From the NCBI GenBank assembly GCA_903890485.1, contig CAITBM010000124.1, forward strand, positions 1-57,307: 57,307 nt of DNA, written 5' to 3'. Under the pieces are notes generated by a model. That model was given only the letters and a program-made list of their open reading frames with translations. It was not told the origin of the DNA and did not search any database. Source of the DNA: an uncultured Opitutaceae bacterium. GTDB lineage: Bacteria; Verrucomicrobiota; Verrucomicrobiia; Opitutales; Opitutaceae. Position numbers and translations under genes: made by a program. Shown piece after piece: positions 4,639 to 50,219 of this stretch; the stretch's first letter is position 1; each line of letters starts with the position of its first letter.

Positions 4639-5871
4639 TCATACAGCTATCGGCAGAGGGGCAACCTGCTCTGGTGGGAACGCTGCGGGGCGTGCCACTT
4701 TGGGCTGGGCTGCCCTCACGGGCAGGATGCCGAAAAACTGTTCGGCTTCCTCGGTGCTTTTCAGGTCGAGGTAATGTTTGCGAATGATCGCCTCGGAATT
4801 GCCAGCTTGGAGAGCGGCATCGCCCATGGAGCGAAATTTCCCGACGTGCATGCTGATGAATGTGTGCCGAAGGATGTCGTGCGAGAGCTTGAAGTGCTTG
4901 CGGAATTTGAGTCGCAGGCGCCTGAAGCCCACCGGCATGATTGGGAAGTCGTCGAGCGGGTAGGCTTGTAGCCACGCGGCCAGGTTCGGCTGAATGGTGA
5001 TGTTTCGCTTCATTCGGACCTTCGACACCTTCGGTTCGATGTGAATGACGCCCGTGTCCAGGCGGACGGACTTGGGATCAAGCTTGGAGATTTCGCCCTC
5101 ATAGAGGTCGGGCCGGATGCCGGCGAAGAGGCAGAGGGCGATGAACGGGACGAGCTTTCCGCCGTGGTTCTCCTCGGCCCACTTCATGATTTCCGCACAT
5201 TGATCGGCGGTCAGTGTCGGGGCGGACCCGCGCCGATGACCGAGACCCCGGTAGTGCGGCACCTTGTCGATGGGGTTAACGGCGATCCAGTCTTTGACCT
5301 GGAGGCAGTATTTGAGGAATGCGCCGATCAGGCCCCGGCGGTTGTTGTAGGATTTTCTCGAGACCTGGCCTCGCTTGAGGAATTCCGCAAGTACGGCGGC
5401 GGTGAGGTCGCTCACCAGCTTGCCCCGGAACGTGACTTCCAAAGCCCGCAGCTCGCACCGGAAGGAGGTAAATTGCCGGTGCGATAGATGCCCCTGCTTG
5501 TGGTCCAGCTCCCGCAGGGCGAGGTATTCGCGGGCCGCCTCGACGACGGGCTTGTCATTTACCGGGTCGCGGTAGTTCGTAAGCGCGTAATCGAGATAAA
5601 AGCTTAGGGAGCGTGACCGGGTCCCGAGACGTTGAAATGCCGCCTCCGACTCCCGGACCTGCTCGATTGTCAGGCAGGTCGAGATGGAACGCAGGCCCGA
5701 GGCGGCCTGCTCCGCGCCGAGTTCCATCGCCGCTTTGTCGGCGCCGGCCTCTTCTCGGGTCTTGAAGTTCTTCCGGATGCGGACACCTCGGAGCCAGCCG
5801 GATACTCGCCATGAGGTCACGCCATTCCGGTTTTTGTAGCGGATGACGGCAAACGTATTTTCGTGATTCAT
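4639..5871 (-). CDS. Tyrosine-type recombinase/integrase
   Basis: This 410-residue protein has an N-terminal arm-binding region, a core-binding helical domain (about residues 100-210) and a C-terminal catalytic domain (about 220-375). Catalytic residues visible are R253 in AGIRPDL, R335 in HDILRHTF, and the nucleophile Y367 in RKHYLDL, with H366 beside it. The usual LGHS motif reads AGNS here. The sequence ends with a proline- and alanine-rich tail. The gene lies next to tRNA-His and points away from it, the standard layout for an element integrated at a tRNA 3' end. It is probably the integrase of the accessory island to its left. No excisionase is visible. Confidence 0.88.
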   Translation of the reverse strand: MNHENTFAVIRYKNRNGVTSWRVSGWLRGVRIRKNFKTREEAGADKAAMELGAEQAASGLRSISTCLTIEQVRESEAAFQRLGTRSRSLSFYLDYALTNYRDPVNDKPVVEAAREYLALRELDHKQGHLSHRQFTSFRCELRALEVTFRGKLVSDLTAAVLAEFLKRGQVSRKSYNNRRGLIGAFLKYCLQVKDWIAVNPIDKVPHYRGLGHRRGSAPTLTADQCAEIMKWAEENHGGKLVPFIALCLFAGIRPDLYEGEISKLDPKSVRLDTGVIHIEPKVSKVRMKRNITIQPNLAAWLQAYPLDDFPIMPVGFRRLRLKFRKHFKLSHDILRHTFISMHVGKFRSMGDAALQAGNSEAIIRKHYLDLKSTEEAEQFFGILPVRAAQPKVARPAAFPPEQVAPLPIAV

Positions 5872-43031: not shown

Positions 43032-44282
43032 CTAGGCGGCCTCGATCACCGGCTTCGGGTGGAGTGTCGCGTGCACCATATCCAGCAGGGCCTGCACCTT
43101 GAAGGGCTTGTAGAGAAAGGCCGCGCCGAACCGTTCTGCCCTCACGTTGCTCCCGTTGCTCGAAAGTCCGCTCATCGCCATCATCTTGGTGCGCGGGTTC
43201 AGGTGCTTGATGATCGCCGCCAGCGCGCTCCCGTCCAGGTTGGGCATTACCAGGTCCGTGATCACCAAATCGATGTCCCTGCTGTGCGTCGCGAAGGTGG
43301 CAACCGCCTCGGCACCGTCGCCCGCGGTGAGGACCCGGTAGCCGTTCCTCTTGAGCATCGCCGCCGTCATTTCCTTGATCTGGGGCTCGTCGTCGACGAC
43401 GAGAATCATCTCCCCATTGCCGTTCTCGCGCTTGACCGGCTGCACCTCGGTTCGGCGCTCCTTCTGCGAGACCTCGGCCGCCGGCAGGTAAACGCGGAAC
43501 GTCGTGCCCTGCCCGCGCTGGGTCTTCAGGTTGATGAACCCGTGGTGGTTCTCGACGATGCTCCGCACCGTTGAGAGTCCCAGGCCGGTGCCCTTGCCCG
43601 CGCCCTTCGTCGTGAAAAACGGCTCCCATATCCGTGAAAGCGCCTCCGGCGGGATGCCGACCCCGGTGTCCTCCACCCGGATGATGACCCAGGCACCGGG
43701 CTTGCCCCCCTCAAGCTTCATCGCCGTGCCGTCATCAAGGAGGCAGTTCTCGGCGCTCAGGCTGAGCGTGCCCCCGTCGGGCATCGCGTCGCGGGCGTTC
43801 ACGCAAAGGTTCAGGAGCACCTGGTGGATCTGGGTCGGATCGGCCATGATTGGCCAGAGGTTGTCGGGAAACCCGAACTCGACCGCGATGCTCTTCGGGA
43901 ACGTCTCCCGCATGACGGCGAGAGTCTCCCTGAGCAGGTGCTTGATCTGGACCAACTGGGGGACGCTTGCCGCGCCATGGGCGAACGAGAGGATCTGGCG
44001 CACCAGGTCCACCCCCCGCTCCGCGCTCTTTTCCAGAGAGGTGATGATCCTCAGGTCCTCGGGATTGGTGGCGTGCTCCCGAAGGATCGGCGCTGCGAGA
44101 ATGATGGGGGAGAGGACGTTGTTGAGGTCGTGGGCGATCCCCGAGGCCAGCATCCCGATGCTCTCCAGGCGCTGGGCCCTGAGGTAGCGCTCGTCGGCGC
44201 CCTTCTTCTCCGGGTCGACCAGGGGCAGCCCCGTCCCGGCCTTGGCCTCACTGCCGTCGTCACAGATGAGCGAGGGGTTCAT
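43032..44282 (-). CDS. Hybrid histidine kinase with C-terminal receiver
   Basis: The 416-residue cytoplasmic kinase lacks membrane helices. The HisKA region has the phospho-histidine in GIAHDLNNVLSPI near residue 50, and the ATPase domain has LLNLCVNARDAMPDGG, VEDTGVGIPPEAL and GTGLGLSTVRSIVENH. A linker leads to a receiver domain (about residues 290-410), with MILVVDDEPQI and the aspartate in LVITDLVMPNLDG. It resembles ATPase-receiver hybrids that feed into phosphorelays. It starts at 44282; the open frame upstream is unlike it. The NarL-type regulator gene at 44526 is divergent and may be its partner. Confidence 0.92.
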   Translation of the reverse strand: MNPSLICDDGSEAKAGTGLPLVDPEKKGADERYLRAQRLESIGMLASGIAHDLNNVLSPIILAAPILREHATNPEDLRIITSLEKSAERGVDLVRQILSFAHGAASVPQLVQIKHLLRETLAVMRETFPKSIAVEFGFPDNLWPIMADPTQIHQVLLNLCVNARDAMPDGGTLSLSAENCLLDDGTAMKLEGGKPGAWVIIRVEDTGVGIPPEALSRIWEPFFTTKGAGKGTGLGLSTVRSIVENHHGFINLKTQRGQGTTFRVYLPAAEVSQKERRTEVQPVKRENGNGEMILVVDDEPQIKEMTAAMLKRNGYRVLTAGDGAEAVATFATHSRDIDLVITDLVMPNLDGSALAAIIKHLNPRTKMMAMSGLSSNGSNVRAERFGAAFLYKPFKVQALLDMVHATLHPKPVIEAA

Positions 44283-44525
44283 CGGCCTGCCTCCACCCGG
44301 GGCCGCACCCCACCTGCTCGGGCGTAAAAGTATGCCGAAAGGAAGTGGCTCAGGAGCCCAGTCTGGAGGCCGAAGTCTTCCATTCCCGCAAACTGAGTGC
44401 GTCGTTAAGAGCCCTCGACGCCGAATTCTACGTCTTTTTACGTAATCGCATACAATTTTCATCGGACTCCACGGGACTCGGAAGCATGCTTGAGGTTGTG
44501 AGAGCCCCTTTGTAAGACTGCCCGC
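44283..44525. promoter_or_regulatory. Divergent intergenic region between the hybrid kinase and the NarL-type regulator genes
   Basis: A 243-bp gap with no supported gene separates two divergent signalling genes, so promoters for both should lie here. AT-rich blocks occur around 44430-44465, unlike the surrounding GC-rich coding DNA. I could not identify a convincing -35/-10 pair. Confidence 0.45.
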
Positions 44526-45141
44526 GTGAAAATCGTTATCGTCGAAGACCATTTGATGATCCGGGACGTTGTACGAAAGGTGTGCAGTTCGGATTTCGGC
44601 TACACGGTGGTCGGCGAAACGGACTCGGGCGTGCAGGCTGTCGAGCTGATCATCAAGCACCGGCCGGATGCCGTGATCCTCGACCTCTCGCTGCCCGACA
44701 TGGATGGATTCAATGTGGCGGACCGGGTGTTGAGAGTGATCCCGAGCCTAAGGATCCTCATGCTCTCCTCGCACTGCGACGACTACACGCTCTTCCGGGT
44801 CGAGAAGTCGGGCGTGCACGGGTTTCTCGACAAGAACTCGAACACGATCGAGACCCTGCGTGACGCGCTCAAGGCGATCGGCGAGGGCAGGATCTATTTC
44901 TCGCAGGCCTTCCAGGCTGCGCGCATGGCGCGGCGCACCGACCCGAGGTCCTTCATCAAGGTCCTCTCCGACTGGGAGCGCGCGATCCTTTCCCTTATAG
45001 GCCAGGGCCTTACCGACGAGGAGATCGGGGAGCGGCTCAACCTTTCACCGAGGACCGTCCAGACCCACCGCAGCAACATCCTGCGCAAGCTGGACCTGAA
45101 GGGGACGCCCAAGCTGATCGCTTTCGCCGTCGAGAACGGGT

Positions 45142-48969
<3,828 letters not shown>

Positions 48970-49106
48970 TTCGTTAGCTAAAGGGAATGGAAGGAATGCT
49001 TCACGTGCAGTGCCTATAACTACAGAGAAAAACGTACCGACCGGCGTCAAATTAGGCGATTTAAGAAATAGTCGAATGGATGGGGGAGGTCGTAGCTTCG
49101 TCCCCG
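48970..49106. promoter_or_regulatory. Divergent region between the hybrid sensor and the peptide/YcaO genes
   Basis: This 137-bp stretch lies between divergently read frames and is more AT-rich than its surroundings. Both promoters probably lie here, but no clear sigma-70 boxes stand out. A TATAAC-like element occurs near 49014. The assignment depends on the peptide ORF being real. Confidence 0.35.
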
Positions 49107-49289
49107 ATGAAAACACTAAATCGCATGGCTCTAGGAACGATCTCAAGCCTGCTGCTCGCAGCCGGCTTCTCACGCACCGCCCAGAAGCTCGATCCTCTCT
49201 CCCAATCGCTAAACGCTTCGTGTTTTGGTCTGGAATCACACCCGTCAAGCCCCTGCATGCCCTGCTTCCTCTGTGACGAAGGCATCTAA
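49107..49289 (+). CDS. Candidate 60-residue Cys-rich peptide (possible modified-peptide precursor)
   Basis: An ATG at 49107 opens a 60-codon frame with an N-terminal stretch resembling a signal or leader (MKTLNRMALGTISSLLLAAG, then FSRTAQKLDP). The C-terminal tail is SQSLNASCFGLESHPSSP, then CMPCFLCDEGI. Cysteines lie at 39, 50, 53 and 56, with many serines. It ends 36 bp before a stand-alone YcaO gene on the same strand. YcaO enzymes act on Cys, Ser or Thr residues or on backbone amides of precursor peptides, so this is a plausible substrate. The ribosome-binding site (GGGGGAGG at 49082-49089) is 17 nt upstream, farther than usual. It could be a chance ORF. Confidence 0.45.
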   Translation: MKTLNRMALGTISSLLLAAGFSRTAQKLDPLSQSLNASCFGLESHPSSPCMPCFLCDEGI

Positions 49290-49325
49290 TAGCCGAGGAC
49301 AACACGCTACAAAAACGATGCCGTC

Positions 49326-50219
49326 ATGATCAGCGTTGCAGGATTCCGCTACCGAAATGCTCTCGAGGCGGACGGGGGCCCCATCAGCAGGATCTCCCTG
49401 CGCGAGTTCCCCGTTTACGGGCGTCCGATGTACCAGGCCAACGCGTGGCTGTCGGACAAGATCGTCCCCCGCAGGAAGAAGTTCGCGCTCTACAGTGACG
49501 CGGACGGCACGGGGACGGCGGAGACTCCCATGGTGGCCCGCTACATGGCGATATCCGAGTCGATGGAGCGCTGGGCCTACCGCGTGAAGGCGAAGGCGAA
49601 CGACCGCGAGCTCTACGGCTTCGACATCGATGAGTCCTCGAACGGCATGGCGGCATTCCCCGGAATCTTAGCGACCGAGGCCCGCAAGCGGGCCCAGCTG
49701 GAGGCCGTGGAGCGGTCCAGCGTGATTGCCTGGTGGGAGGGTGCCCTCGACGGGGAGCTGAAGCAGACGGAATGGCCCGGCATCAGCGCGCTCGTGTTGC
49801 CAAGCCCGATTGAGCACGGGGTCACGGTGGTGGCGTTTCGCGAGGTGAGGCCCGACTGCTTCGCCTACGGCATGGGTGCGGGGATGAACTACTTCGGGGC
49901 GTGCGAGCGCGCCGTGATGGAGCTCGCCCGCAACGAGTACGTGCTCGGCCTGAGGCGCGTTTCGCTTGGGCTGGCGGTGCAGGACTCCCCGTCGGATCTC
50001 TTTGAGCGCCGGTGCCTCTTCTTCTCGACGGCGGAGGGGCACGCGATGTTCAGGGAGAGGCTGGGGCGGAAGATCACCGGCCCGCGCTTCACCTCGGAGG
50101 TGATCTGTGACGCCGAGATCGAGGGGCCCTGGACCGAGTACGCCTCGGTCTGGCGGGTCCTCATCCGCCCCTCGTCGACCGAGTTCCTCCTGGACACCGA
50201 GCGGTACTTCTTCTGGTAG
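49326..50219 (+). CDS. Stand-alone YcaO-domain protein
   Basis: The 297-residue protein shows the YcaO ATP-binding signature elements in order: TAETPMVARYMAISESMERWAYR (ExxxER), SNGMAAFPGILATEARKRAQ with LEAVERSSVIAWWEG, and GACERAVMELARN. YcaO enzymes use ATP to activate peptide amides; they make azoline rings, thioamides and macrocycles in RiPPs, and help RimO modify ribosomal protein S12. It is shorter than most (about 350-450 residues) and lacks the fused or adjacent E1-like (ThiF), dehydrogenase or TfuA partners. The only neighbour on the strand is the small peptide ORF at 49107. The specific reaction is unknown. Confidence 0.85.
   Translation: MISVAGFRYRNALEADGGPISRISLREFPVYGRPMYQANAWLSDKIVPRRKKFALYSDADGTGTAETPMVARYMAISESMERWAYRVKAKANDRELYGFDIDESSNGMAAFPGILATEARKRAQLEAVERSSVIAWWEGALDGELKQTEWPGISALVLPSPIEHGVTVVAFREVRPDCFAYGMGAGMNYFGACERAVMELARNEYVLGLRRVSLGLAVQDSPSDLFERRCLFFSTAEGHAMFRERLGRKITGPRFTSEVICDAEIEGPWTEYASVWRVLIRPSSTEFLLDTERYFFW

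Follow-up and report, generated by a model that had tools for sequence, protein, structure and literature searches.

Organisation of the locus

We analysed a stretch of 57,307 nucleotides from an uncultured Opitutaceae bacterium, referred to throughout as the window. It contains a short open reading frame (ORF) with four cysteines, followed on the same strand by a stand-alone YcaO gene, with 36 bp between the stop codon of the ORF and the YcaO ATG. The direct neighbours of this pair are a hybrid histidine kinase gene and a TPR protein gene, both on the reverse strand. The features discussed below are as follows.

44526..45188, forward strand: LuxR-family response regulator gene (REC and GerE domains), convergent with the kinase gene
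45142..48969, reverse strand: hybrid histidine kinase gene, with a probable TTG start at 48969, divergent from the peptide gene
46795..48885, reverse strand: fast-diverging sensor region of the kinase, limits approximate
48970..49106: divergent promoter region, intergenic between the kinase and peptide genes
49020..49037: CTAC-N10-GTAC, an operator-like inverted repeat 87 bp upstream of the peptide start codon
49107..49289, forward strand: precursor peptide gene, ATG to stop, 60 residues, with C39, C50, C53 and C56 and the C-terminal end SSPCMPCFLCDEGI; a signal-peptide-like leader (about residues 1–30) precedes a variable linker and the Cys core
49326..50219, forward strand: stand-alone YcaO gene, ATG to stop, 297 residues, C-terminal FFW

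The first-pass annotation had reported the Cys-rich 60-residue ORF, and its coordinates, frame and four cysteines, which all lie within the last 22 residues, proved correct. It had also seen no partner enzyme beside the YcaO; among the adjoining genes in the window we likewise found no ThiF/E1-like, dehydrogenase or TfuA gene, so the YcaO is stand-alone. Its proposal of a minimal two-gene system had to be abandoned on comparison of neighbourhoods, which links a divergent sensor kinase, a LuxR-type regulator and an operator-like repeat to the pair. The TPR gene beside the window YcaO was left out of the module; homologues occur in 5 of 81 neighbourhoods. A further HisKA-HATPase-REC protein is encoded at 43032-44660 on the reverse strand, adjoining the LuxR-type regulator.

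The short ORF encodes a conserved precursor

Relatives were collected by a pattern-based scan of the genomes of 84,980 species, which returned 97, and 80 loci were analysed (78 verrucomicrobial and two from Bacteriovoracaceae, L102 and L103). A leader profile of 20 seeds, 19 of them from these loci, was run on 22,317 six-frame segments. At E<1e-3 its 69 matching segments, spread over 65 loci, each lie immediately before YcaO on the same strand, and it matched nowhere else in the 80 loci; given the 19 shared seeds, fifty of the 69 matches are non-seed. At E<1 the profile reached 70 loci, with a single match elsewhere (L043, E 0.63). Upstream DNA is available for 78 loci, and 75 of these have a precursor before the YcaO, identified by the profile at E<1e-3 in 65, at E 0.02–0.23 in five, and by eye in five (L085, L087, L093, L096 and L098). 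L081 and L101, where the sequence ends too soon upstream, stand outside this count, and no evident precursor was seen before the YcaO of L082, L102 and L103. L082 (genome G034) has a YcaO, a kinase and two regulator matches; the other copy, L084, has a precursor.

A precursor profile was also run against 26 chosen genomes, where it matched all 13 that carry the YcaO and none of the 13 that do not. Eleven of the 13 YcaO-bearing genomes had supplied rows to the profile; G015, G018 and the second copy in G035 had not. One stray weak match was seen, in G003 (E 0.004).

The reading frame is under constraint. Across 28 same-genus pairs the leader pN/pS has a median of 0.27 and a maximum of 0.80, while the two alternative frames of this DNA give medians of 1.00 and 2.17. 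Taken by itself, the closest pair, between the window (genome G000) and G004 of the same genus, is less clear (leader omega 0.76 on 36 codons). This value, and the richness of GC-rich DNA in short ORFs, would suit a frame that is open by chance, or a secreted peptide that is unrelated. The frame kept over 28 pairs, the fixed position and the co-occurrence with YcaO together make that reading extremely improbable, and refute the earlier concern that the ORF might be fortuitous; conservation, which had been named as the decisive test, comes down in its favour at the level of both gene presence and codons.

The leaders upstream of YcaO share the pattern M..nR..lG..SSLLLa.Gf.RaA.rLDP, followed by the variable linker and the Cys core. 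In a crude signal-peptide test of 75 precursors (not SignalP), K/R near the start was present in 71, a hydrophobic stretch in 73 and a small-x-small site in 72, with all three features in 67 leaders. A precursor with a conserved leader and a variable core beside a YcaO is the arrangement expected of a RiPP locus. We considered leaderless transcription of the peptide gene from the TANNNT-like bases before some ATGs; no such signal appeared in the column profile.

Variable cores retain a Pro-Cys motif

Core statistics were taken from 75 precursors, 74 from the loci plus that of the window, with Cys counted after residue 30. Post-leader Cys is present in 71 of the 75. The four precursors lacking it are the second paralogues L048, L051 and L099 and the edge locus L052; the cores of L093 and L096, read by eye, also lack it. 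Pro lies directly before 74 of the 155 post-leader Cys, against a Pro background of 8.9% in this region, and before the last Cys in 45 of 71 precursors. The Cys spacing is 4 in 36 cases and 3 in 18. The cores are variable between species, yet a Pro-Cys or C-x-x-P-C motif is kept. Thus, the expectation of conserved Cys before YcaO holds for the motif near the C-terminus but not for the exact Cys positions.

Some cores are repeated in tandem: five-fold in L083 (AFSELPCQFS), three-fold in L063 (AFTETVCNF), L094 (DTCTWPCE) and both L086 and L091 (GCAQLPCYHRDF), and two-fold in L100 and L032. Single-Cys cores are common (L067, L068, L070 and L075-L079). Three Cerasicoccus loci carry PTWPCEV (L098), PTYPTEV (L096) and PTFPTEV (L093) at the same core position, and this Cys/Thr exchange is as expected of a cyclodehydratase. 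A second tandem precursor with a like leader and a Cys-free or unusual core was observed at L048 7746-7907, L051 4502-4663, L099 7750-7899 and L047 1123-1284.

The YcaO enzyme

The window YcaO is matched above the cut-off by Pfam PF02624 (E 8.6e-7), with the partial profile match covering residues 103–203, and by no NCBIfam family above its cut-off. TIGR03604 (SagD) scored 12.1 bits against a cut-off of 219.25, placing the protein outside the SagD-type model. No E1/ocin-ThiF-like fusion or partner was found in the 297-residue protein, in the adjoining genes or among the representatives of ten neighbour clusters described below. The TfuA-associated thioamidating class is marked by an adjacent tfuA, a position occupied in the window by the kinase and TPR protein genes. 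Nor does the locus belong to the MNIO/bufferin class, the enzyme beside the precursor being a PF02624 protein.

A sequence search of solved structures gave only weak YcaO matches (McbD, E 0.14; TruD, E 0.64), so a comparison of folds was needed. The structure model (pLDDT 92.6, 77 sequences) has YcaOs as all of its 14 best structural matches, with Z of 10.0–16.9, and the next, unrelated, match has Z 6.1. The model was most similar to McbD (6gos_D, Z 16.9, 262 residues aligned, rmsd 4.0), and further fold matches include 6ci7_D (Z 16.3), 4v1v_B (Z 16.1) and TruD (4bs9, Z 10.0). Foldseek placed only 6gos_D below E 0.001 (1.7e-6).

We aligned the window YcaO with those of 76 of the 80 loci, leaving out four partial loci; the YcaOs of G022, G078 and G129 are not in this alignment. 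S77, E78, E81, R82, E126, R130 and E199 are invariant, and E129 is conserved in at least 90%. We take S77-E78, E81-R82, E126, E129-R130 and E199 to be the ATP/Mg-binding acidic motifs of the YcaO superfamily. Most family members end in FFW. Azoline-forming YcaOs have a Pro-rich C-terminal tail. For the predicted modification, an azoline at Pro-Cys appears the most likely chemistry, and the gene content seen gives no support to a +16 Da modification.

Some putative catalytic residues are lost in the YcaOs of G022 and G078 (genus g11) and of G129. These proteins are L178 (G022), L177 (G078) and L179 (G129); Pro-rich repeated cores occur in G022 and G078, and no precursor was seen with the G129 YcaO.

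A divergent kinase with a double-propeller sensor

The window kinase comprises a signal peptide, a periplasmic double β-propeller (Reg_prop), a transmembrane helix and HisKA, HATPase_c and REC domains. A Y_Y_Y-like domain and a weak Hpt-like C-terminus (E 0.02) lie below the cut-off. The protein probably starts at TTG 48969, judging from the conservation of this codon in the eight rows from other genomes that reach it (seven of seven others), and with this start the kinase gains its signal peptide.

A sensor-similarity search with eight query sensors, seven from the 80 loci, placed a divergent kinase within 1.5 kb upstream, on the opposite strand, in 67 of the 80 loci. In L058, L060, L069 and L090 a divergent kinase of the same build was recognised by size and domain scan, while L084 and L097 have a divergent ORF of similar size in the same broad similarity cluster. 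Four loci are too short on DNA to judge, and L047, L102 and L103 showed no divergent kinase in the DNA covered. In the window's genus the sensor orthologue accompanies the enzyme: all nine YcaO-bearing genomes have it (two as fragments) and none of the four YcaO-free genomes does, the best match there having 26% identity (G012). It is well supported that a conserved stand-alone-YcaO RiPP pair sits inside a sensor-kinase module.

All 34 kinases that were scanned (the window's and those of 33 loci) carry HisKA, HATPase_c and REC, with Reg_prop matched in 26, Y_Y_Y in 18 and Hpt in 13. No AraC-type DNA-binding domain appeared in the matches of the window kinase or among the 10 families listed for the 34. 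Classical hybrid two-component systems (HTCS) of the BT4663 type are defined by a C-terminal AraC-type DNA-binding domain in the same chain, and the YcaO-linked kinases fall outside this definition. The sensor itself is like theirs: the structure model (pLDDT 91.2, 36 sequences) aligned full-length with 4a2l (BT4663; 653 residues, Z 25.8, rmsd 4.3) and with 3v9f (BT3049; 652 residues, Z 25.1, rmsd 5.2). Single WD40 propellers rank above these two, but over only about 277 residues.

The regulator, the inverted repeat and the neighbourhood

Among the 57 loci whose upstream DNA reaches 5.4 kb, 49 have a regulator like that at window positions 44526-45188 convergent behind the kinase, two have it behind YcaO, and six have it in neither place. 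Precursor, modifying enzyme, membrane kinase and regulator are thus linked, the gene set expected of a peptide-pheromone two-component system.

Of 69 loci, 38 carry the repeat TAC-N10-GTA in the 250 bp upstream of the peptide start codon. When the spacing was varied from 4 to 16, the twelve alternatives occurred in 0–6 loci each, and the 250-bp regions downstream of YcaO contain it in 1 of 66; since the repeat was discovered in the same regions, the spacing test is post hoc, and the 69 upstream regions include related species with shared ancestry. Most copies start at fixed places, -64 to -66 or -84 to -89, 22 bp apart. The repeat is absent from 31 of the 69 upstream regions, including the Lacunisphaera loci L061, L062 and L066. 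A strict genus pattern derived from nine promoters gave 10 matches in nine genomes, each promoter plus one extra, and the reversed control gave 6; this indicates that few further strict copies exist and shows no regulon there.

With the palindrome CTACCGGANNTCCGGTAG and at most one mismatch, we found 32 sites in seven chosen genomes, seven of them at the peptide promoter, compared to two for the reversed pattern. At the other 25 sites (L148-L172) the longest nearby frame was read mechanically and three were put to Pfam, giving one PAS/REC hybrid kinase and two TonB-dependent receptors; the remaining sites include more such genes by eye, and others that are unrelated. The recurrence of the palindrome CTACCGGAnnTCCGGTAG in the seven genomes, partly before PAS/REC hybrid kinases and TonB-dependent receptors, raises the possibility of a regulon. 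This is a lead, as the motif may be common to other regulators.

The neighbour scan covered 81 neighbourhoods within 8 kb, calling frames of at least 90 residues mechanically with the longest frame winning. In 25 of the 81 a longer overlapping frame displaced the YcaO frame itself, so that further genes, if small or overlapped, may have been missed. Ten further recurring clusters were looked at through one representative each: six had no Pfam match, some of them maybe antisense frames, and the other four were a conserved hypothetical/methyltransferase, a TonB-dependent receptor, a glycosyl hydrolase and a carbamoyl-phosphate synthase. The genes downstream of YcaO were considered as part of the module and set aside; they are mixed, with kinases (hybrid or short) and LuxR regulators in 10 of 33 scanned. 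We found neither an RRE domain nor a dehydrogenase, protease or exporter in the module, and its genes thus do not explain how the leader would be recognised or how the peptide would mature and cross the outer membrane.

The sensor diverges faster than YcaO and the kinase domain

We compared the kinases of six same-genus genomes in which the gene is whole. Sensor identity is 38–57% and kinase domain identity 67–83% (44–57% and 76–83% without G005). As a control we used a paralogous, unlinked propeller hybrid kinase (L121, G000:C22, with the orthologues L122-L128) from eight genomes of the genus, where the sensor is 52–77% and the kinase domain 59–82% identical. Ten genome pairs are shared by the two sets; they include G005, of the same genus, and do not use G003, whose control kinase (L130) is broken in two. 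In all ten, identity is lower for the YcaO-linked sensor than for the control sensor (38–54% vs 52–63%) and higher for the YcaO-linked kinase domain than for that of the control (67–80% vs 60–71%). Thus, the divergence of the YcaO-linked sensor is disproportionate. The window and G004 illustrate this, with YcaOs 92% identical and kinase N-termini (262 codons) 58%.

Over ten pairs from five genomes, dN is 0.33–0.53 for the sensor, 0.10–0.15 for YcaO and 0.11–0.20 for the kinase domain, such that sensor dN is 2.5–4.6 times that of YcaO or the kinase domain. Sensor dS (1.5–2.2) is near saturation, compared to 0.7–1.3 for YcaO and kinase, and omega is 0.19–0.33 for the sensor, 0.09–0.15 for YcaO and 0.11–0.23 for the kinase, all below 1. 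The higher sensor dS together with omega below 1 indicates fast divergence or old alleles, and does not prove positive selection. A changing environmental ligand could be an alternative cause.

Core distances were related to those of the other parts in 54 of 71 precursors, leaving out those with a kinase below 1150 residues or none, plus L035, L059 and L071 (no recognised His box). The partial correlation of core with sensor distance is 0.18 once kinase, YcaO and leader distances are removed, and 0 of 2000 permutations reach it, in a test that removes phylogeny incompletely. The partial correlation of core with YcaO distance is 0.19 and with kinase distance -0.18. In 165 close pairs the raw correlations with sensor (0.59), YcaO (0.52) and kinase (0.50) are nearly alike. 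With a weak r and such similar raw correlations, the support for co-divergence of core and sensor is modest.

A proposed peptide signal and its alternatives

The linked kinase, the LuxR-type regulator and the operator-like repeat shift the likely function of the pair towards a peptide signal, and a peptide autoinducer is the most likely function of the module. We think it somewhat more probable than not that the four genes form an autoinducer module, in which a YcaO-modified, exported peptide is sensed by the linked kinase. We infer the following sequence of steps. The short Sec-leader precursor would be modified in the cytoplasm by the stand-alone YcaO, through ATP-dependent cyclodehydration of the core Cys (Thr in some species), often after Pro. 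Sec would export the modified peptide, the leader would be cut off, and the core peptide would bind the double-propeller sensor of the hybrid kinase, in the periplasm or outside. Phosphate would pass from the kinase to its REC domain, to an Hpt domain where present, and on to the LuxR-type regulator, which would bind TAC-N10-GTA before the peptide gene to give more peptide, and perhaps control a small regulon in some lineages. The broader proposal carries a chance slightly better than even: that these are YcaO-made, Sec-exported autoinducers of Gram-negative Opitutales, sensed by periplasmic propeller kinases, with core and receptor co-diversified into species-specific pherotypes and a YcaO-kinase link that recurs, together with an oligopeptide-binding protein, in Bacteriovoracaceae.

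Two other roles for the peptide deserve weight. The kinase might sense an environmental cue (metal, redox or glycan) and induce a secreted, metal-binding Cys peptide, as the resemblance of the Cys core and signal-peptide-like leader to bufferin precursors, which bear Sec signal peptides and chelate copper (PMC12452194), would allow. There is also a likeness between the sensor and the periplasmic part of BT4663, which senses heparin. The many single-Cys cores, the Thr in L093 and L096 and the variable residues round the Cys are unexpected for a metal site, and the sensor diverges faster than its own kinase, unlike the paralogue; the ten neighbour-cluster representatives, six of them without a Pfam match, include no metal-transport family. 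We therefore regard this reading as unlikely, and give no better prospects to the idea that the peptide is an antimicrobial RiPP, with the kinase and regulator controlling and perhaps autoinducing its production. Bacteriocins, too, are known to have variable cores, multicore precursors and control by kinases; against that, no exporter, protease or immunity family is found among the same ten representatives (within 8 kb, six without a Pfam match), and core distance follows sensor distance.

It is also improbable, if anything slightly more so, that the module works as proposed while its YcaO performs thioamidation, amidine formation or ATP-dependent peptide cleavage. The structural neighbours include the archaeal YcaOs 6ci7 and 6peu, which act in thioamidation, as well as 7u58, an entry for a YcaO peptidase, and most family members end in FFW in place of a Pro-rich tail. 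Cyclodehydration most directly explains both the Cys kept in 71 of 75 precursors and the Cys/Thr exchange, and no TfuA gene lies beside the window YcaO.

Relation to known systems

The autoinducer reading has its closest parallel in the Agr/ComX-type pheromone systems of Gram-positive bacteria, which comprise a precursor, a modifying enzyme, a kinase and a regulator, with a variable peptide and sensor. The likeness extends to the grouping of a small precursor and its dedicated enzyme with a membrane histidine kinase and a regulator at a single locus, and to the variability of peptide and sensor while the remainder is conserved. The differences here are the YcaO enzyme, the Sec-like leader, the periplasmic double propeller and the Gram-negative, verrucomicrobial host, and the ligand role of the peptide is inferred. 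Most known cases of signalling by modified peptides come from Gram-positive bacteria, and most known YcaO products are antibiotics or modifications of enzymes. The module appears to represent a new type of signal between Gram-negative cells that relies on a modified peptide. We found no description of it among the matches listed from the literature searched, which is weak evidence of novelty because most subscription papers lie outside that literature.

Compared to the BT4663/BT3049 hybrid two-component sensors, whose periplasmic domain matches the sensor model full-length, the module has a separate LuxR-type regulator, no AraC-type domain found, and a link to a RiPP pair. It shares with the bottromycin-type stand-alone YcaOs the lack of a C protein. 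The bottromycin pathway has two YcaOs, one of them suspected of making thiazoline from Cys, and several methyltransferases (PMC4603692), whereas one YcaO with a linked kinase and regulator is present here. Bufferins and other MNIO-modified RiPPs likewise have a Sec-type leader on a Cys-containing precursor. PMC12452194 describes Sec signal peptides on bufferin precursors and copper chelation, and calls Sec-type leaders on bacterial RiPP precursors rare. Our loci differ in having a YcaO beside the precursor and short cores that are often single-Cys and sometimes repeated.

If the proposal is correct, a YcaO-dependent signal in Opitutales would open cell-cell communication in Verrucomicrobiota to study and would exemplify a RiPP pathway of two genes whose leader is of the Sec type. 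Receptor specificity could then be studied on about 65 natural pairs of precursor and sensor.

Distribution of the module and the Bacteriovoracaceae loci

The YcaO is present in 20 of 57 related genomes (the window's own included) and in 88 of 252 genomes of the family. Of 384 genomes sampled across the class, 16 have it, and these belong to five families of a single order. Named isolates of Cerasicoccus and Coraliomargarita have the module and, with the predicted repeat, make it directly testable.

In Bacteriovoracaceae the YcaO directly follows a gene for a solute-binding protein of the SBP_bac_5 family (E 2.4e-15 and 4.5e-20), which we take to be a family of oligopeptide-binding proteins, and a different histidine kinase is near. 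This recurrence of the YcaO-kinase link supports the signalling reading. In these loci the 700 nt before the YcaO showed no Cys precursor. The SBP_bac_5/YcaO/kinase arrangement is found at L102 6477-7994 and at L103 821-2335 and 5345-6859. Between the kinase and the second SBP gene of L103, at 5143-5310 on the forward strand, lies a Cys-free, signal-peptide-like ORF of 49 residues from its ATG, which is a possible precursor there.
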